NCBI RefSeq assembly: GCF_003544935.1
Contig: NZ_CP032098.1
Location: 496,001 to 560,000 of the forward strand
Source: Malaciobacter molluscorum LMG 25693
Lineage (GTDB): Bacteria > Campylobacterota > Campylobacteria > Campylobacterales > Arcobacteraceae
DNA: 64,000 bases
Reading direction: 5' to 3'
The position numbers and the translations under genes were made by a program. Under the pieces are notes generated by a model, which was not told where the DNA came from, did not search any database, and saw nothing but the letters and a program-made list of their open reading frames with translations. This document shows positions 1,986 through 57,337 of this stretch, one piece after another. Positions within the stretch are counted from its first letter, which is position 1. The number at the start of each line of letters is the position of its first letter.

Positions 1986-2573
1986 ATGAATTTGATAGAT
2001 AAGTATATTCTAAAAGAGGGACAAAGAGTGATTTTATCACTTTTTGTTATAGCAATAGTTTTACACCTATTAAATTTAGAGTTCTTATCTACGCTTTTTT
2101 TATTAATATTCTTTTTATCACTTTATATATTTAGAAATGAAAAAATAGAACTTTGTAAAGATTGTACAATTGTATCTCCTGTTAGTGGAGAAGTTCATGC
2201 AATTGATTTTAATGAAAAATATAAAATTATATATATAAATACTTCTTTATTTGATAATTCTATTTTGATAGCTCCCCAAAGCGGTAATTTAAAATTAACA
2301 TATTTAAAAAGAGGAATAAATTTACCGCTAAATGAAAAGTTATCAAAAAAACTTAATGAAAAACTTATTTTTGAACAAAAAAATATAAAAGTTGAGTTGT
2401 TAAGTTCTACCGCAACAAATGAATTAGCTTTAAGTAAAATCAATGAAAACCTAGATATAGCACAAAAGATTGGAATATTTACACAAGGTGAAGTTATACT
2501 TTTTATTGACAAAAATGTAGATATATCTTTACAAATTGGGCAAAAAATTAAAGTTGGTACGAAAATAGTATAG
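1986..2573 (+). CDS. Phosphatidylserine decarboxylase-like membrane protein
   Basis: A 195-residue protein with two hydrophobic segments near the N-terminus (about 13-48), then a soluble beta-rich domain. The stretch SPVSGEVHAI resembles the metabolite-binding core of phosphatidylserine decarboxylases. The LGST-type motif where those enzymes self-cleave to form the pyruvoyl group is not visible, so activity is doubtful. In Campylobacter a related gene also follows ftsH and is followed by pssA; here the following gene is a signalling gene instead. It could be a lipid-binding relative rather than an enzyme. It starts 4 bases after ftsH. Confidence 0.6.
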   Translation: MNLIDKYILKEGQRVILSLFVIAIVLHLLNLEFLSTLFLLIFFLSLYIFRNEKIELCKDCTIVSPVSGEVHAIDFNEKYKIIYINTSLFDNSILIAPQSGNLKLTYLKRGINLPLNEKLSKKLNEKLIFEQKNIKVELLSSTATNELALSKINENLDIAQKIGIFTQGEVILFIDKNVDISLQIGQKIKVGTKIV

Positions 2574-2600
2574 TTAAAATATATTTTTAGCGCTTTCTTA

Positions 2601-2644
2601 TGATATAATCAATTAAGTAATATAAAAATAAACTTATTTTTATA
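2601..2644 (+). promoter_or_regulatory. Extended -10 promoter with a downstream palindrome, upstream of the HD-GYP gene
   Basis: TGATATAAT at 2601-2609 is a perfect extended -10 element (TGnTATAAT). About 12 bases downstream lies an 11-bp perfect inverted repeat, TATAAAAATAA at 2621-2631 and TTATTTTTATA at 2634-2644, with a 2-base spacer. It would fall just after the predicted transcription start. It could be an operator or an A/U hairpin in the leader. The promoter reading is inference from consensus only. Confidence 0.45.
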
Positions 2645-2674
2645 TATTAGTGACACTATTGTATGGAGAGCATT

Positions 2675-4486
2675 ATGAATAATATTGATGAAATATTAAG
2701 CTATCTAAAGCAAATCAATCTTTTATATGTTGAAGATGATTTAAGTGCTATGGAAGAGGTGAGTTATTTCTTACAATCAAAAGTAAGAAATTTATATACT
2801 GTAAAAAATGGTAAAAAAGCTTTAGAAGTTTTTAATGAAAATGAAATAGATATTATTATTACTGATATTCAAATGCCAATTATGTCTGGTTTAGAATTAG
2901 CTAATGAAATAAAAAAAACATCACCTAAAATACCTATTATTATTACTACTGCATTTAATGATAGCCAATATCTTTTTGATGCCATAAATCTTGGTATTTC
3001 AAACTATATCACAAAACCTATCAATTTAAAAATTTTAGTTGAAAATCTTTTTTCAGTTTCAAAAACAGTTATTTTAGAAAGAGAAAATAAAGAGATTTAT
3101 AATACTCTTTCTCAATATAAAGATATTGTGGATGAACGTTCTATTATTTCTAAAACTGATCAAGATGGAATAATAACTTATGTAAATAAACCTTTTTTAA
3201 AAATTTCAGGCTATTCAAAAGAAGAAATAATTGGAAAACCTCATAGTATTATAAAGCATTCTGATGTAGATAATAAATACTATTCTGAAATTTGGCATGT
3301 TATTAAAGATGAAAAAAAATTATGGCAAGGTGAATTTAAAAACTGTTCAAAAGATGGATATACATATTATCTAGACACTATAATAAAGCCAATACTAGAT
3401 TTAAATGGAAATATTATAGAGTATATATCTTTATCAAATGATATTACATATTTGCGAGAAACAAAAGAGTATTTTAAAAATCAAACTGAAAAAACATCAC
3501 TAGATTTAAAAGAATCAATTAATATTTTAAATCAATATAAAGATGCAATAAATAAAAGTAATATAATTGTTAGAGTAAATAAAAATAGAAAAATTGAACA
3601 TGTAAATGATGCTTTTATTGAAGCAACAGGTTATTCAAGGGAAGAGTTAATAGGACAAGACTACTCATTTTTAAAGCAACCTAATTTAACAAAAGAAGAG
3701 TATGAAAAATTAGTAGAAGAAATTTTTTCAGAAAATGGAAGAAGAGGTATTATTGTAAATGAAACAAAAGATAAAAAACTTTTATATTGTGATGTTTATA
3801 CTTATCCTCTTAAAGATTTAGATGGGAATATATTTGAATATATTGGTATTAGACATGATATTACAGAAATAGTAGAACTGCATAAAGAGTTAGAAAATAC
3901 ACAAAGAGAGATAATTTATAAACTTGGAGAAATATCTGAAAGTAGAAGTCAAGAGACTGGGCAACATGTAAAAAGAGTTGCTGAATATTCAAAACTTTTA
4001 GCAATAAAATATGATTTATCTGAGGAAGAAATAAATACTGTTTTTACTGCTTCTCCTATGCATGATATTGGTAAAATCTCAATACCTGATGCAATTTTAC
4101 ATAAACCAGGTAAGCTTGATGAACAAGAGTGGGAGATTATGAAGACACATTCAAAAATAGGCTATGATATTTTGAAAAATTCAACAAGACCAATTTTAAA
4201 AGCAGCAGCAGAAATTTCACATTCTCATCATGAAAAGTGGGATGGTTCTGGTTATCCTCAAGGTTTAAAAGGTGGTGATATTCCAATTTTTGGAAGAATA
4301 ACTGCTATTGCAGATGTTTTTGATGCTTTAGGAAGTGATAGAAGTTATAAAAAAGCCTGGCCAATTGAAAATATATTAGACTTATTTCATAAAGAAAGAG
4401 GGAAACATTTTGACCCTAATTTAGTTGATATATTTTTTGAGAATATTGATGAGTTTTTAAAAATACGAGATAAATTTAAAGATTGA
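2675..4486 (+). CDS. Response regulator with two PAS domains and an HD-GYP domain (probable c-di-GMP phosphodiesterase)
   Basis: Cytoplasmic signalling protein of about 603 residues. The receiver domain (about 12-125) has the acidic pair in VEDD and the phospho-acceptor Asp near 64 in ITDIQMP. Two PAS domains follow (about 155-270 and 290-405). The HD-GYP domain (about 415-590) has HD in MHDIGKI at 463-464, HH in SHSHHEKWDGSGYP and the GYP triplet at 526-528, so hydrolysis of cyclic di-GMP is likely. An in-frame ATG at 2663 would add four residues. The ATG at 2675 is preferred because GGAGAG lies 4 bases upstream. The gene overlaps or abuts the next response regulator and heads a four-gene signalling operon. 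Confidence 0.88.
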   Translation: MNNIDEILSYLKQINLLYVEDDLSAMEEVSYFLQSKVRNLYTVKNGKKALEVFNENEIDIIITDIQMPIMSGLELANEIKKTSPKIPIIITTAFNDSQYLFDAINLGISNYITKPINLKILVENLFSVSKTVILERENKEIYNTLSQYKDIVDERSIISKTDQDGIITYVNKPFLKISGYSKEEIIGKPHSIIKHSDVDNKYYSEIWHVIKDEKKLWQGEFKNCSKDGYTYYLDTIIKPILDLNGNIIEYISLSNDITYLRETKEYFKNQTEKTSLDLKESINILNQYKDAINKSNIIVRVNKNRKIEHVNDAFIEATGYSREELIGQDYSFLKQPNLTKEEYEKLVEEIFSENGRRGIIVNETKDKKLLYCDVYTYPLKDLDGNIFEYIGIRHDITEIVELHKELENTQREIIYKLGEISESRSQETGQHVKRVAEYSKLLAIKYDLSEEEINTVFTASPMHDIGKISIPDAILHKPGKLDEQEWEIMKTHSKIGYDILKNSTRPILKAAAEISHSHHEKWDGSGYPQGLKGGDIPIFGRITAIADVFDALGSDRSYKKAWPIENILDLFHKERGKHFDPNLVDIFFENIDEFLKIRDKFKD

Positions 4487-33419: not shown

Positions 33420-34352
33420 TTAACTTTTGAAAATAGAGTTAACTGATTCGTTATTGTGAATTCTTTTTATAGTTTCTCCAATAATATCAGCAGCAGTTAA
33501 AACTGTAATTTTATCACTTTCTTGTTTTGCCGGAATTGTATCTGAAATTACAAGTTCATCTAAAACACCATTTTCTATTCTTTCATATGCAGGTCCAGAA
33601 AGAACGCCATGAGTACAACATGCCATAACAGATGTTGCGCCTTTTTTCTTTAGTACTTCAGCTGCTTTAACTAACGTACCAGCAGTATCTACCATGTCAT
33701 CAACAAGAATAACATCTTTTCCATTAACATCGCCAATAATATTCATAACTTCAGCAACATTTGCTTTTTCTCTTCTTTTATCAACAATTACTAAATCATA
33801 ACCTAATTTATTAGCATAACTTCTTGCTCTTGCAACTCCTCCAATATCAGGACTAGCAATAATAGGATTAGCTAATTTTTTTGATTTGATATAATCAACA
33901 AACATAATTGAACCAAATAAGTTGTCAACAGGAACATTAAAGAAACCTTGGATTTGAGCAGCATGTAAATCTATTGTAATAACTCTATGAATTCCAGCTT
34001 TTTCAAGTAAATCTGCAACTAATTTTGCAGAAATCGGAACTCTTGGAGCCGCTTTTCTATCTTGTCTTGCATAACCATAATAAGGGATAACTGCAGAAAT
34101 TGATTTTGCACTTGACCTTTTTAATGCATCAATCATAATTAAAAGTTCCATTAGATTATCATTTGTTGGAGCACATGTAGGTTGAATAATAAAAACATCT
34201 TGTCCTCTTACACTTTCTGTAACTTGAACAGATATTTCACCATCACTAAATTTATTGAGGTTTGCTACACCAATAGGTTCTTTTAAGTATTCTCCGACTT
34301 TCTTTGCAAATTCAGGGTTGGCAGAACCACTAAAAAGTTTAAAACACGACAT
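33420..34352 (-). CDS. prs: Ribose-phosphate pyrophosphokinase
   Basis: Makes PRPP from ribose 5-phosphate and ATP for nucleotide, histidine and tryptophan synthesis. At 310 residues it is a class I enzyme of normal length. YGYARQDRKAAPRVPISAKL carries the ATP-binding and catalytic flap residues, DLHAAQIQGFF the metal-binding His, and VILVDDMVDTAGTL the PRPP loop. It is transcribed alone from the intergenic region at 34353-34480, divergent from the putative small RNA. Confidence 0.96.
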   Translation of the reverse strand: MSCFKLFSGSANPEFAKKVGEYLKEPIGVANLNKFSDGEISVQVTESVRGQDVFIIQPTCAPTNDNLMELLIMIDALKRSSAKSISAVIPYYGYARQDRKAAPRVPISAKLVADLLEKAGIHRVITIDLHAAQIQGFFNVPVDNLFGSIMFVDYIKSKKLANPIIASPDIGGVARARSYANKLGYDLVIVDKRREKANVAEVMNIIGDVNGKDVILVDDMVDTAGTLVKAAEVLKKKGATSVMACCTHGVLSGPAYERIENGVLDELVISDTIPAKQESDKITVLTAADIIGETIKRIHNNESVNSIFKS

Positions 34353-34482
34353 TATATTTTTTCCTTGTAATTTATTAGTATTTGTATAGTGCGATTTTAT
34401 CTAAATACTTCTTATATTGAATTTAGATGTTTTTTGTAAAAAATATATAGACTAGCAGTATATAAAATATACAGATAAAATA

Positions 34483-34510
34483 TTGATTTTTTATTTTTTC
34501 ATGTTATACT
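34483..34510 (+). promoter_or_regulatory. Promoter of the putative small RNA
   Basis: TTGATT at 34483-34488 and TATACT at 34505-34510 are 16 bases apart on the plus strand, giving a start near 34517. There is no protein gene on this strand in the gap. Confidence 0.55.
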
Positions 34511-34515
34511 TTGAC

Positions 34516-34753
34516 TGTTCTTCTAATAAAGAGAAGATTAATACAGGAATTTTTTAAGCGCGAGTCCGTTATTTTGATTACACACCTTGTAATTTTGTAA
34601 TTGCAAAATATTGTTAAGATTTTAAGCACCCGTTCATTTACTTTTAATCTTAAATTAGTTTTGTAATTTTGTGATGATTGTCAATGTTTGACTTCATATG
34701 TACTTTCTAGTGTAGAATTCTAAGAGAGAATCCCTCCTCCTCTCTTAGTTTTT
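34516..34753 (+). ncRNA. Putative structured small RNA with C-rich terminator loop
   Basis: About 238 bases between prs and mnmA, opposite in strand to both, with a promoter and an intrinsic terminator but no ORF of note. Visible hairpins are TCTTCT/AGAAGA (34519-34537), ATTTTG/CAAAAT (34592-34609), TTAAGATTTTAAG/CTTTTAATCTTAA with a CACCCG-containing loop (34614-34653), GTCAA/TTGAC (34680-34692) and the terminator. The GC-richer patches (AAGCGCGAGTCCGTT) stand out from the A+T-rich background, as is typical of RNA genes in such genomes. It does not show tmRNA, RNase P or SRP RNA signatures. A 6S RNA, or a trans-acting regulator like Helicobacter RepG, is possible. Confidence 0.6.
34720..34753 (+). 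terminator. Intrinsic terminator with anti-Shine-Dalgarno-like loop
   Basis: CTAAGAGAG (34720-34728) pairs perfectly with CTCTCTTAG (34740-34748), followed by TTTTT. The 11-base loop contains CCCTCCTC, complementary to purine-rich ribosome-binding sites. The T-run exists only in the plus direction, so it terminates a plus-strand transcript, not mnmA. Confidence 0.8.
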
Positions 34754-34755
34754 AA

Positions 34756-35793
34756 TTATTTTGAAGTATTTTCTATCCATCCACTACCAATAACTTTTTG
34801 CCCATCATAAAATACTGCAAGCTGACCTGCCGCAACTCCAAATGCTGGTTGTTTAAGTTTTATGATAGCTTTTGAATCATTTATTATTACTTCACATTCT
34901 GTTGTCACACTTCTATATCTTAACTTTACTCCACAATTAAATTTAGTATCATCTATGTACATATTTAAATTATTTGCAGTGACAAAATTTACTTCAAGTG
35001 CATCTTTTTCACCTACAACAATTGTATTATTCTTTGGATCTAATTTTGTTACAAAATGAGGAACATGTGCTCCATCTACAGTAAATCCTCTTCTTTTACC
35101 AATCGTATAATGCATATAACCTTTATGTTTTCCTACTACATTACCTTGTTGATCAAGAACATCTCCGGGGATATCTATATTTGCATGTTTTTTTACAACA
35201 TCTGTATATACAGTTTCTACAAAGCAGATTTCTTGTGATTCATTTTTTTCTGTTATTTTTTTATAAGCAACATCAAGTTGAGCTGCAAATTTTATAATAT
35301 CTTCTTTTTTATAAGTGCTCAATGGAAACATCATATATGGTAATGCTTCTTTTTCTACTTGTGAAAGAAAATAACTTTGATCTTTTGTTTTATCATCAGC
35401 TTCATAGAAAAATTTACCATCAGTTTTTGCATAATGCCCTGTTGCTAAATATGAAGCTTTATGATCTTTGGCAAACTTTAGCATAGCCCCAAATTTTATT
35501 TGTCTATTGCATTTAACACATGGATTTGGAGTTGTTCCTTGTAAATAAGAATCTACAAAATAATCGTAAACTTCTTGTGTAAATTTATCTGCTAAATCTA
35601 ATATATGATATTTAATACCTAAATATTCTGCAACATCTTTTATATATCCAATATTTTTTTCATGATAACCATCAGTTCTATTATGAAGTTTTAAATAAAC
35701 ACCTTCAACTTCAAATCCATCTTTTTGTAGCATATATGCAGTAACTGATGAGTCAATTCCTCCACTCATTCCTACCATTACTTTCTTTTTCAT
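34756..35793 (-). CDS. mnmA: tRNA 2-thiouridylase MnmA (copy 1, Campylobacterota type)
   Basis: Adds sulfur to U34 of the Lys, Glu and Gln tRNAs. A 345-residue protein with the PP-loop ATP motif GMSGGIDSS (8-16), the first cysteines in TPNPCVKCNRQIKF (Cys92, Cys95) and the catalytic Cys189 in ESQEICFVE. The middle and C-terminal beta domains follow (MHYTIGKRRGF, then AFGVAAGQLAVFYDG). The extra Cys92 in NPCVKCN distinguishes it from copy 2. It is preceded by AAAGGACAT as ribosome-binding site and, further upstream, by a decayed folK fragment. Confidence 0.92.
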   Translation of the reverse strand: MKKKVMVGMSGGIDSSVTAYMLQKDGFEVEGVYLKLHNRTDGYHEKNIGYIKDVAEYLGIKYHILDLADKFTQEVYDYFVDSYLQGTTPNPCVKCNRQIKFGAMLKFAKDHKASYLATGHYAKTDGKFFYEADDKTKDQSYFLSQVEKEALPYMMFPLSTYKKEDIIKFAAQLDVAYKKITEKNESQEICFVETVYTDVVKKHANIDIPGDVLDQQGNVVGKHKGYMHYTIGKRRGFTVDGAHVPHFVTKLDPKNNTIVVGEKDALEVNFVTANNLNMYIDDTKFNCGVKLRYRSVTTECEVIINDSKAIIKLKQPAFGVAAGQLAVFYDGQKVIGSGWIENTSK

Positions 35794-36005: not shown

Positions 36006-37103
36006 TTAATTATAATCACTAATAAATCCACCACCAAGACAATAATTACCATCATATAAAACAAGACTTTGTCCTAAAGTTACTGCTCTTTGTAGATTAT
36101 CAAATTCAACTATAACTTTTTCATCATTAACTTCTACTACGGTACATGCTTGTTTTTGCTGACGATAACGAACTTGTGCCATTAATTTATCACCAATTTT
36201 TGGTGGAGTTTCTAATACCCAATGCATATGACTAGCTTCTACATTTTTACTCATAAGTAATGGATGATTTGTATCTTGTACAATTGTTAAAGTATTATTT
36301 GTCATGTCTTTTTTAGCAACATACCATGGTTTATGAATATTATTTTCTAATTCCGTTTCTTTAATGCCTCCAAGACCAATACCTTTTCTTTGTCCTAGTG
36401 TATAACAAACAAGACCTTTGTGTTTACCTATTACTTTTCCATGTTCATCTATGATGTCTCCAGGGATTGCTTTTAAATATTGGGTAATAAATTCATCAAA
36501 TTTTTGTTTACCAATAAAACATATTCCTGTGCTATCTTTTTTATCACTTACTGGTAAATTATGTTCTTTTGCTATTTGTCTAACTTCTTTTTTTGTTAAA
36601 TCTGCAAGTGGAAACATTGCTTGAGAAAGTTGTTCACTTGATAATGCATGTAGAAAATAACTTTGATCTTTTGTATTATCTTTTGGTGTATCTAAAACAT
36701 AATGATCTTTATATTGAGCTATTTTTGCATAATGTCCAGTAGCAATAAAATCAGCACCCATTTTTTTTGCTTCATTTAAAAATACATTAAATTTAATTTC
36801 ACGATTACATAAAATATCAGGATTTGGAGTAAGACCTTTTTTTAGACCTTCTAAGAACACATCAAATACTTTTGTTCTGTACTCTTCAACAAAGTCTTTA
36901 CCTTTTACTTCAATGCCTATTAATTTACCTACTTTTTTTGCATCTTCAAACTCGATACGGTTAGGACATTGGCTACCTTCGATGCCATATTCCCAATTAC
37001 GCATAAATAAGCCTTGTACATCATAACCTTGTTGTTTTAGTAGTAATGCTGTAACTGAAGAGTCAACACCACCAGACATTCCTACTACTACTTTTTTTTT
37101 CAT
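36006..37103 (-). CDS. mnmA: tRNA 2-thiouridylase MnmA (copy 2, gammaproteobacterial-like)
   Basis: A second 365-residue MnmA. The PP-loop is GMSGGVDSS (8-16). It has the MRNWE motif and the catalytic pair in TPNPDILCNREIKF (Cys99) and DSTGICFIG (Cys195), as in the E. coli enzyme (Cys102 and Cys199 there). TLGQRKGIGLGG and the C-terminal VTLGQSLVLYDG complete the fold. It differs from copy 1 in these signatures and in length, so it is not a recent duplicate; acquisition from another lineage is likely. It is flanked by folK on the upstream side and a folK fragment on the downstream side. Confidence 0.92.
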   Translation of the reverse strand: MKKKVVVGMSGGVDSSVTALLLKQQGYDVQGLFMRNWEYGIEGSQCPNRIEFEDAKKVGKLIGIEVKGKDFVEEYRTKVFDVFLEGLKKGLTPNPDILCNREIKFNVFLNEAKKMGADFIATGHYAKIAQYKDHYVLDTPKDNTKDQSYFLHALSSEQLSQAMFPLADLTKKEVRQIAKEHNLPVSDKKDSTGICFIGKQKFDEFITQYLKAIPGDIIDEHGKVIGKHKGLVCYTLGQRKGIGLGGIKETELENNIHKPWYVAKKDMTNNTLTIVQDTNHPLLMSKNVEASHMHWVLETPPKIGDKLMAQVRYRQQKQACTVVEVNDEKVIVEFDNLQRAVTLGQSLVLYDGNYCLGGGFISDYN

Positions 37104-39330: not shown

Positions 39331-40554
39331 ATGAAACTAATAAGTGCAAAGTGGGTAATTACCTGCGATGAAAATAGTAGCATCATAGAAAATGGTGCTA
39401 TTGTTTATGATAAAAAAATAATACAAATTGATACATTAGAAAAAATACAAGAAAATTATCCAAACTTACAACCTTTAATATTAGAAGAAAATTCTGTTTT
39501 AATGCCAGGTCTTATTAATACTCATGTTCATTTGGAATTTAGTTCTAATTCTACAACACTAAAGTATGGTAATTTTATGTTATGGTTAAACTCTGTAATT
39601 GGTTCAAGAGATGAACTTATTCAAAAAGCAACTACAAATCTTATTGAAAAAAAACTAGATAAAATGAAAAAAAGTGGTACTACAACTATTGGTGCTATTT
39701 CATCTTATGGTTTTGATATGCAAGCTTGTTTAAATTCTCCTATAAATACAGTTTTTTTTAATGAAGTAATTGGAAGTAAAGCAGATATGATTGATACATT
39801 ATTTGCTGATTTTAAATCAAGACTTGAAGAATCTAAAAAAAATAAAAATAGTAGTTTCTTCCCAGCTATTGCAATACACTCTCCATATTCTGTACATCCA
39901 ATACTTATAAGAGAGACTTTAAATATAGCTAAAAATGAAAATCTACCTGTAAGTGCACACTTCTTAGAATCTATAGAAGAGTATGATTGGTTACATAAAG
40001 ATGAAGGTGGGTTTACAGATTTTTTTAAAAACTTTTTGGGTCAAGAAAAAGCTGTTACTAGGCCAATGAATTTTTTAAATCAATTTGAAGGTATAAAGAA
40101 TTTATCTTTTACTCATTGTGTTGAGGCAAGTAATGAAGATTTAAAAAAAATCAAAAGTTTAAATGCAATTATAAATCATTGTGTTACTTCTAATAGAATT
40201 TTGAATAATACAAAACTAGATCTTTCAAGAATTGATGATACAGATTTTGCAATAGGAACAGATGGATTAAGCTCAAATAACTCTTTATCAATGTTTGATG
40301 AGATGAGAAATGTATTAATGATGCATACAGATTTTGAAATTAATAGTTTTGCAAAGAAAATATTAAAAGCTTCAACTTCAAATGCATCAAGAGCATTAGG
40401 ATTAAATAAGGGTATTTTGCAAAATGGTAAAGATGCAGATATAATTGCAATTAATCTACCAGATAAATTAAAACATAAAGAAGATATTGCAACACATATA
40501 ATTTTACATACTAAGTATGTGAAAAAAACAATAATAGGAGGGGAAGATGTTTAA
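39331..40554 (+). CDS. mqnX: Amidohydrolase, probable aminodeoxyfutalosine deaminase
   Basis: A 407-residue metal-dependent deaminase of the COG0402 group. The metal-binding HxH is in GLINTHVHLEF, further His ligands in PVSAHFLESIEEYDW and SFTHCVEA, and the catalytic Asp in IGTDGLSSNNSLSMFDEM. Members in Campylobacterota convert 6-aminodeoxyfutalosine to futalosine for menaquinone synthesis, and the aroQ-deaminase-sppA order matches that group. No other mqn genes lie in the window, so the substrate assignment rests on family and neighbours. The next gene overlaps it by 8 bases. Confidence 0.8.
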   Translation: MKLISAKWVITCDENSSIIENGAIVYDKKIIQIDTLEKIQENYPNLQPLILEENSVLMPGLINTHVHLEFSSNSTTLKYGNFMLWLNSVIGSRDELIQKATTNLIEKKLDKMKKSGTTTIGAISSYGFDMQACLNSPINTVFFNEVIGSKADMIDTLFADFKSRLEESKKNKNSSFFPAIAIHSPYSVHPILIRETLNIAKNENLPVSAHFLESIEEYDWLHKDEGGFTDFFKNFLGQEKAVTRPMNFLNQFEGIKNLSFTHCVEASNEDLKKIKSLNAIINHCVTSNRILNNTKLDLSRIDDTDFAIGTDGLSSNNSLSMFDEMRNVLMMHTDFEINSFAKKILKASTSNASRALGLNKGILQNGKDADIIAINLPDKLKHKEDIATHIILHTKYVKKTIIGGEDV

Positions 40555-56304: not shown

Positions 56305-56381
56305 TGGCGCGGTTGACGAGACTCGAACTCGCGACCTCCTGCGTGACAGGCAGGCATTCTAACCAACTAAACTACAACCGC
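56305..56381 (-). tRNA. tRNA-Asp (GUC), copy 3
   Basis: Cloverleaf of 77 bases with encoded CCA. Acceptor GCGGTTG/CAACCGC; anticodon loop CTGTCAC gives GUC. Last tRNA of the third transcribed unit. Confidence 0.96.
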
Positions 56382-56385
56382 ACAA

Positions 56386-56461
56386 TGGTGGTCGATAGTG
56401 GACTCGAACCACTGGCATCTACCTTGTAAGGGTAGCGCTCTACCAACTGAGCTAATCGACC
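56386..56461 (-). tRNA. tRNA-Val (UAC), copy 3
   Basis: Cloverleaf of 76 bases with encoded CCA. Acceptor GGTCGAT; anticodon loop CTTACAA gives UAC. Confidence 0.96.
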
Positions 56462-56489
56462 TGAAGATATTTTTTTTGATTTTTTTGAA

Positions 56490-56564
56490 TGGTGACCCCT
56501 AGGAGACTCGAACTCCTGTGGCATGGATGAAAACCATGAATCCTAACCGCTAGATGAAGGGGCC
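56490..56564 (-). tRNA. tRNA-Glu (UUC), copy 3
   Basis: Cloverleaf of 75 bases with encoded CCA. Acceptor GGCCCCT; anticodon loop TTTTCAT gives UUC, a substrate of MnmA. The spacer to tRNA-Val is longer here than in the other units. Confidence 0.96.
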
Positions 56565-56573
56565 AAAAAAAAA

Positions 56574-56649
56574 TGGTGACCCGTGAAGGATTCGAACCTT
56601 CGGCCACCTCCTTAAAAGGGAGATGCTCTACCAGCTGAGCTAACGGGTC
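56574..56649 (-). tRNA. tRNA-Lys (UUU), copy 3
   Basis: Cloverleaf of 76 bases with encoded CCA. Acceptor GACCCGT/ACGGGTC; anticodon loop CTTTTAA gives UUU, a substrate of MnmA. Confidence 0.96.
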
Positions 56650-56665
56650 AATAAACAATAATAAG

Positions 56666-56742
56666 TGGCGCGGTTGACGAGACTCGAACTCGCGACCTCC
56701 TGCGTGACAGGCAGGCATTCTAACCAACTAAACTACAACCGC
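56666..56742 (-). tRNA. tRNA-Asp (GUC), copy 2
   Basis: Identical to the copy at 56305-56381. Confidence 0.96.
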
Positions 56743-56746
56743 ACAA

Positions 56747-56822
56747 TGGTGGTCGATAGTGGACTCGAACCACTGGCATCTACCTTGTAAGGGTAGCGCT
56801 CTACCAACTGAGCTAATCGACC
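56747..56822 (-). tRNA. tRNA-Val (UAC), copy 2
   Basis: Identical to the copy at 56386-56461. Confidence 0.96.
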
Positions 56823-56833
56823 TAAAATAATAA

Positions 56834-56908
56834 TGGTGACCCCTAGGAGACTCGAACTCCTGTGGCATGGATGAAAACCATGAATCCTAACCGCTAGATG
56901 AAGGGGCC
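56834..56908 (-). tRNA. tRNA-Glu (UUC), copy 2
   Basis: Identical to the copy at 56490-56564, with an 11-base spacer to tRNA-Val. Confidence 0.96.
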
Positions 56909-56917
56909 AAAAAAAAA

Positions 56918-56993
56918 TGGTGACCCGTGAAGGATTCGAACCTTCGGCCACCTCCTTAAAAGGGAGATGCTCTACCAGCTGAGCTAACGGGTC
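56918..56993 (-). tRNA. tRNA-Lys (UUU), copy 2
   Basis: Identical to the copy at 56574-56649. Confidence 0.96.
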
Positions 56994-57009
56994 AATAAAC
57001 AATAATAAG

Positions 57010-57086
57010 TGGCGCGGTTGACGAGACTCGAACTCGCGACCTCCTGCGTGACAGGCAGGCATTCTAACCAACTAAACTACAACCGC
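57010..57086 (-). tRNA. tRNA-Asp (GUC), copy 1
   Basis: Identical to the other Asp copies; fourth tRNA of the first transcribed unit. Confidence 0.96.
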
Positions 57087-57090
57087 ACAA

Positions 57091-57166
57091 TGGTGGTCGA
57101 TAGTGGACTCGAACCACTGGCATCTACCTTGTAAGGGTAGCGCTCTACCAACTGAGCTAATCGACC
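57091..57166 (-). tRNA. tRNA-Val (UAC), copy 1
   Basis: Identical to the other Val copies. Confidence 0.96.
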
Positions 57167-57177
57167 TAAAATAATAA

Positions 57178-57252
57178 TGGTGACCCCTAGGAGACTCGAA
57201 CTCCTGTGGCATGGATGAAAACCATGAATCCTAACCGCTAGATGAAGGGGCC
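57178..57252 (-). tRNA. tRNA-Glu (UUC), copy 1
   Basis: Identical to the other Glu copies. Confidence 0.96.
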
Positions 57253-57261
57253 AAAAAAAAA

Positions 57262-57337
57262 TGGTGACCCGTGAAGGATTCGAACCTTCGGCCACCTCCT
57301 TAAAAGGGAGATGCTCTACCAGCTGAGCTAACGGGTC
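57262..57337 (-). tRNA. tRNA-Lys (UUU), copy 1
   Basis: Identical to the other Lys copies; first tRNA transcribed, 41 bases after the upstream CinA-type gene. Confidence 0.96.

Follow-up and report, generated by a model that had tools for sequence, protein, structure and literature searches.

The window, i.e., the whole stretch of 64,000 nucleotides of Malaciobacter molluscorum LMG 25693 that was analysed, contains an intergenic gap at 34353-34755, which is bounded by prs (33420-34352, minus strand) and mnmA (34756-35793, minus strand) and in which no plus-strand open reading frame (ORF) of at least 30 amino acids is found. This mnmA-type gene is adjacent to another at 36006-37103, and both score above the NCBIfam MnmA cut-off. 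The first-pass annotation had placed in the gap an unannotated plus-strand RNA gene, with a promoter pair, hairpins and a terminator, and each of these elements was found again on re-examination, as was the lack of an ORF. The features of the locus, observed or predicted, are the following.

34363-34373, minus strand: site AAATTACAAGG (mRNA sense) of the prs 5' leader, which includes the prs Shine-Dalgarno; an 11-nt perfect complement of the RNA
34458-34472: operator dyad GTATATAAAATATAC (GTATA-N5-TATAC), 32 nt before the -10 hexamer
34502-34510, plus strand: extended -10 element TGTTATACT, invariant in the three RNA-bearing species and matching the TGTTATAAT of the porins
34516-34756, plus strand: predicted small RNA of ~235-240 nt with no credible ORF, based on fold and conservation
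34518-34537, plus strand: hairpin 1, UUCUUCU...AGAAGA, whose 5' arm is the porin-leader element TGTTCTTCTAA
34556-34575, plus strand: invariant box AAGCGCGAGTCCGTTATTTT, with a GCGCG-type motif that is present in Opr porin leaders too
34577-34593, plus strand: hairpin 2, AUUACA-CACCU-UGUAAU, which contains the prs-matching segment
34599-34668, plus strand: long inner stem with arms at 34599-34626 and 34641-34668 (z of -4.3 to -5.8 in the three species)
34672-34696, plus strand: hairpin 4, UGAUGA..GUCA..UUUGAC.UUCA, whose 3' arm resembles porin C-terminal codons
34697-34714, plus strand: hairpin 5, UAUGUACUUUCUAGUGUA, which overlaps the region of the relic porin stop
34720-34748, plus strand: intrinsic terminator CTAAGAGAG-AATCCCTCCTC-CTCTCTTAG, followed by the U-rich TTTTTAATTATTTT

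The promoter-like pair at 34483-34510 reads TTGATT-16-TATACT with an extended TG, and transcription is predicted to start at about 34516-34518. The terminator was skipped by a simple terminator scan, given that its loop has 11 nt and the limit of the scan is 8; this loop, AAUCCCUCCUC at 34729-34739, is C/U-rich, as in RepG. The region 34516-34756 folds at -48.2 kcal/mol (z = -3.25), a value that 0 of 200 shuffles equalled, but the opposite strand folds equally well (z -3.45), so that the fold alone cannot fix the strand, and the plus strand is assigned from the promoter, the U-tract and the orientation of the homologous porin genes. No Rfam family matches the RNA gene. An RNA gene very probably exists in the prs-mnmA gap.

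Comparison with congeners supports the RNA gene of the first-pass annotation well. Homologs (257-284 bits) lie in the same slot of the genomes G005 and G002 (Arcobacter sp. CECT 8985), and the carriers are three related marine Arcobacter-type species of one genus, beyond which no homolog was found among 104 family genomes, whether by model or by pattern; the AAGCGCGAGTCCGTTA of the invariant box is likewise present in three of the 104. The 4-fold sites of mnmA are 58-59% identical among the three carriers, yet the RNA contains long blocks without any change. The flanking blocks are near-invariant, and the arms of the inner stem differ in sequence but keep pairing, with energies of -16.6, -18.6 and -21.3 kcal/mol for the own arms of the three species. 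When the arms are swapped between species, five of the six pairs reach -4.3 to -12.1 kcal/mol and the remaining one -16.1, and arms that have changed and been re-paired point to selection on the RNA structure. The covariation in relatives that had been proposed as a check was not recovered by RNAalifold, which returned no double changes for the three sequences, since an alignment by sequence puts the inner stem out of register; the evidence is instead the swap test, in which the exchange of arms mostly destroys the inner-stem pairing. In the loop of this stem, CGYUCAUU is the conserved part, and the CACCCG loop remarked on earlier is present here but unconserved, G002 having UUUUCG.

The plus strand of the prs-mnmA slot encodes an outer-membrane protein in the congener G001 and in nine of the family loci examined. 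An Opr family porin (NF033922) occupies the slot of L035, L040-L043, L046, L047 and L051, with two of the slot Opr porins tested by the family model and the others assigned by sequence likeness, and a 224-aa TorF-type porin, of which a close relative was tested, occupies that of L045 and L118. When the promoter block of the RNA gene is aligned with its L040 counterpart, none of 300 shuffles does as well in M. molluscorum, G005 or G002, and the start of the leader (TGTTCTTCTAA) also aligns with the porin leader (0-1 of 300). Upstream of the terminator, the 3' end of the RNA gene matches the last part of the porin gene of G001, again better than all 300 shuffles. The RNA gene and the G001 slot porin share the terminator stem, the two terminators being homologous, and the G001 loop already contains C (UUUUCCUACUG), from which the loop of the RNA may be partly inherited. 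The operator dyad also holds the same position in the promoters of the slot Opr porins. No porin reading frame is found in the gap, where just the last codons are recognisable.

The RNA gene thus has its slot, operator, promoter, leader start, last codons and terminator in common with the Opr porin gene (NF033922), and differs from it in having, between the shared ends, a structured RNA core and no porin coding sequence. Judged from these alignments, the RNA gene occupies what was a porin gene, of which the coding body has disappeared, and the change would have run from porin to RNA gene, given that the porin spans many genera and the RNA just three species of one. GCGCG-type and UUCUYCUAA motifs also occur in the leaders of a second Opr porin (L205-L209), where their order is the reverse of that in the RNA and the slot porins.

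Two other congeners differ at this slot. In G003, the promoter-like start, the 5' end and the terminator match those of the RNA gene and the body is unrelated, its homology to the RNA core being unsupported by comparison, which indicates that the core is young or fast-evolving. What lies between the same promoter-like start and terminator in G003 (L037, ~2534-2807, minus strand) is another structured body, which may represent an RNA of independent origin in that porin slot. In G004, neither these shared ends nor the body is present, the element having been lost.

The operator provides a link to nitrogen metabolism. The dyad lies 32 nt from the -10 hexamer at the RNA gene and 33 nt at amt and amt2 of the same genome, and the pattern dyad-N(30-40)-TGTTATA has 28 matches in the 104 genomes versus five for a reversed control, with the copy at the RNA gene, which has 29 nt in the dyad-N-TGTTATA arrangement, lying outside the 28 counted matches. 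The genes that follow these matches encode ammonium transporters in eight cases, glutamine synthetase in two and an ABC substrate-binding protein in two more (its best family match is SsuA-like, and it is read as nitrate-type); the others are porins and a few unrelated genes. A perfect dyad precedes amt in six of the six genomes of the genus, and perfect dyads are present at amt2 in M. molluscorum itself (G000, with two), G005 and G004, while in a 424-kb sample of the M. molluscorum genome the single perfect dyad is that of the RNA gene. This distribution suggests a nitrogen regulon in the Arcobacteraceae with the dyad as a nitrogen-control operator, and the RNA gene is likely to be under this control; given that the operator is common to both, the RNA is probably made together with the ammonium transporter genes.

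Across the Arcobacteraceae, GTATA-N5-TATAC was seen before amt, glnA and the gene of the ABC substrate-binding protein (L220-L247). The cyanobacterial NtcA site is GTA-N8-TAC, and the dyad, with a spacing of GTA-N9-TAC, resembles that site without equalling it. The papers searched contained nothing usable on nitrogen operators of the Campylobacterota.

The earlier idea of a C-rich loop acting on ribosome-binding sites has gained a candidate target in amt. The terminator loop is complementary over 8 nt to the amt Shine-Dalgarno GGAGGGAU in M. molluscorum and G005, an extent that 0 of 341 sampled gene starts reached, and the predicted loop:amt energy is -15.5 kcal/mol, against -14.3 for the best of these starts, the ranking having been made on the 424-kb sample (~15% of the genome). 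In G002, both the loop (UUCCUCC) and the amt Shine-Dalgarno (GGAGGA) differ and 6 nt still pair; the amt genes of G003, G004 and G001 have a weaker GAGGA. The match is a short one, and amt is a possible rather than a probable target of the RNA. Elsewhere in the window, the Shine-Dalgarnos of the gene starts at 40547 (plus strand) and 41482 (minus strand) also pair well with the loop (-13.9 and -14.3 kcal/mol), and the second of these genes resembles acetate kinase at its N-terminus. Long anti-Shine-Dalgarno targets of the form GAGGAGGRA were sought in three genomes and rejected, as most of the sites fall within long reading frames or on the strand opposite a gene, and no convincing ribosome-binding site was found among them; this pattern is unable to detect amt (TGGAGGGAT).

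A second anti-Shine-Dalgarno segment, CCUUGUAAUUU, begins at 34585 in hairpin 2 and matches the leader of the neighbouring prs. In the form CCUUGUAAUUU(U), it is complementary to the prs leader over 11 nt in M. molluscorum and 12 nt in G005 and G002, and shuffled prs leaders did as well in 24, 8 and 11 of 2000 cases, respectively (p ~0.004-0.012). For this segment, prs ranks first of 338 gene starts, and the site is absent from the different prs leaders of G003 and G004, which are without the RNA body. As 9 of 342 starts have a run of at least 11 nt to some part of the whole sRNA, prs stands out mainly as a neighbour whose Shine-Dalgarno is covered and whose match is kept in relatives, and its regulation by the RNA seems slightly less probable than that of amt. 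The papers searched contained nothing usable on a prs sRNA or on sRNAs of Malaciobacter or Arcobacter. This segment, the descent from a porin locus and the ammonium-regulon operator are additions to the first-pass annotation, which had none of them.

The conserved structured RNA, the ancestry in the porin slot, the shared operator and the complementarities are supported by the sequence, and we infer from it transcription, a response to nitrogen, the direction of regulation and the actual pairing. In the proposed explanation, which has roughly even chances and takes the RNA for a nitrogen-regulated antisense sRNA that descends from a porin gene and acts as RepG does, a standalone sRNA gene would have replaced the Opr porin gene between prs and mnmA, with the porin operator, promoter, first leader bases, last codons and terminator being kept and a structured core filling the body. 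The RNA would be transcribed together with the ammonium transporter genes, under nitrogen control. Its C-rich terminator loop would cover the Shine-Dalgarno of the amt mRNA, which would lower ammonium uptake, and hairpin 2 would cover that of prs, which would lower its translation and the synthesis of PRPP, so that ribosome binding would be blocked at both genes in a manner analogous to that of RepG (PMC8295292) and CJnc190 (PMC8687705). The complete version, in which the conversion took place within the porin gene itself and yielded an RNA that now represses PRPP synthetase and the co-induced ammonium transporter, is the more doubtful one. Two precise target predictions, amt and prs, follow from the analysis.

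This RNA would be a new family of a known kind, the antisense sRNA, with an unusual, traceable origin. The origin of new bacterial sRNAs is an open question, their evolution being too fast to trace, and here the states before and after, porin and RNA, are visible in the same slot of close relatives. If the proposal is true, it would give the Campylobacterota a nitrogen-control sRNA whose protein-coding ancestor is still present in relatives.

RepG of Helicobacter pylori (PMC8295292), from the same phylum, is likewise standalone and has a C/U-rich terminator loop, with pairing to G-rich leaders as proposed here. Its target is the homopolymeric G-repeat of tlpB (PMC8295292), whereas the Shine-Dalgarnos of amt and prs are proposed for the present RNA, which has ~235 nt, a second pairing hairpin, an ammonium-regulon operator and an origin in a porin slot. 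No sequence relation to RepG, no Rfam match and, among the 104 family genomes, no relative outside the genus was found. The RNA may work like RepG with no sign of descent from it, and the link drawn at first pass reads as a functional analogy. CJnc190 of Campylobacter jejuni also places a C/U-rich loop on a ribosome-binding site, but it is processed by RNase III and has an antisense partner (PMC8687705), neither of which is seen here. Nitrogen-controlled sRNAs that tune nitrogen-related metabolism are also found in NsiR4 of cyanobacteria, which is linked to NtcA (PMC9196836), and in the sRNA released from the glnA 3'UTR of Enterobacteriaceae (PMC9731577), whereas the present RNA is a gene that replaces a porin. 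No credible Hfq was found in the genome, the best match having 18.2 bits against a cut-off of 61.7, with stops.

On the other hand, the RNA may be a nitrogen-controlled sRNA of the porin slot whose targets are not amt and prs (e.g., the remaining Opr porin), or a decoy that soaks up some RNA or factor bound to porin leaders via the UUCUUCUAA and GCGCG motifs that they share with it, a reading with about one half the chance of the main proposal. Motifs like these two recur in the leaders of both the slot porins and the second Opr porin, and in sampled leaders GCGCG is found in just 1 of 338 and TTCTTCTAA in 4 of 338, but their order varies between the porin families and the complementarity to amt and prs exceeds the background.

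It is rather improbable that the RNA is a functionless by-product of a porin gene in decay, with a promoter and terminator that remain active. The clearly porin-derived promoter, leader start, last codons and terminator would fit such decay, as would the missing element of G004 and the unrelated body of G003, but the blocks that are invariant in three species against the 58-59% identity of the mnmA 4-fold sites, and the compensatory changes of the inner stem, would not be expected under it. Still less probable is an mRNA for a tiny peptide like MIVRFDFIYTF, a porin C-terminus, since the short frames ending in FDFI(Y/C)TF in all three species have start codons and upstream frames that vary by species, a Shine-Dalgarno is absent, and the remainder of the RNA is structured.

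The 6S RNA (RF00013) that had been named as the alternative agrees in size and in its position in a gap, but there is next to no chance of this identity, given that the Rfam search, taken up to an E of 10, returned no match in the gap and that a better, full-length candidate (38.2 bits, E 3.5e-6, below the gathering score of 46.4) lies directly upstream of purD, the place of the 6S RNA in C. jejuni and H. pylori (PMC3847290). Of the earlier interpretation, the RNA gene thus stands and its RepG-like loop has a candidate target, while 6S is dropped. The AGUCCGUUAU of the RNA gene is also part of a known tracrRNA, and a Cas9 tracrRNA was rejected, there being no Cas9 in the three carrier species. 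A Cas9 gene (413 bits) was seen in L122 of G001, the other five congeners having none.

Finally, at 56305-57337 of the window, a unit of four tRNA genes (Asp, Val, Glu and Lys; minus strand) is present in three tandem copies, which are ~344-361 bases apart.
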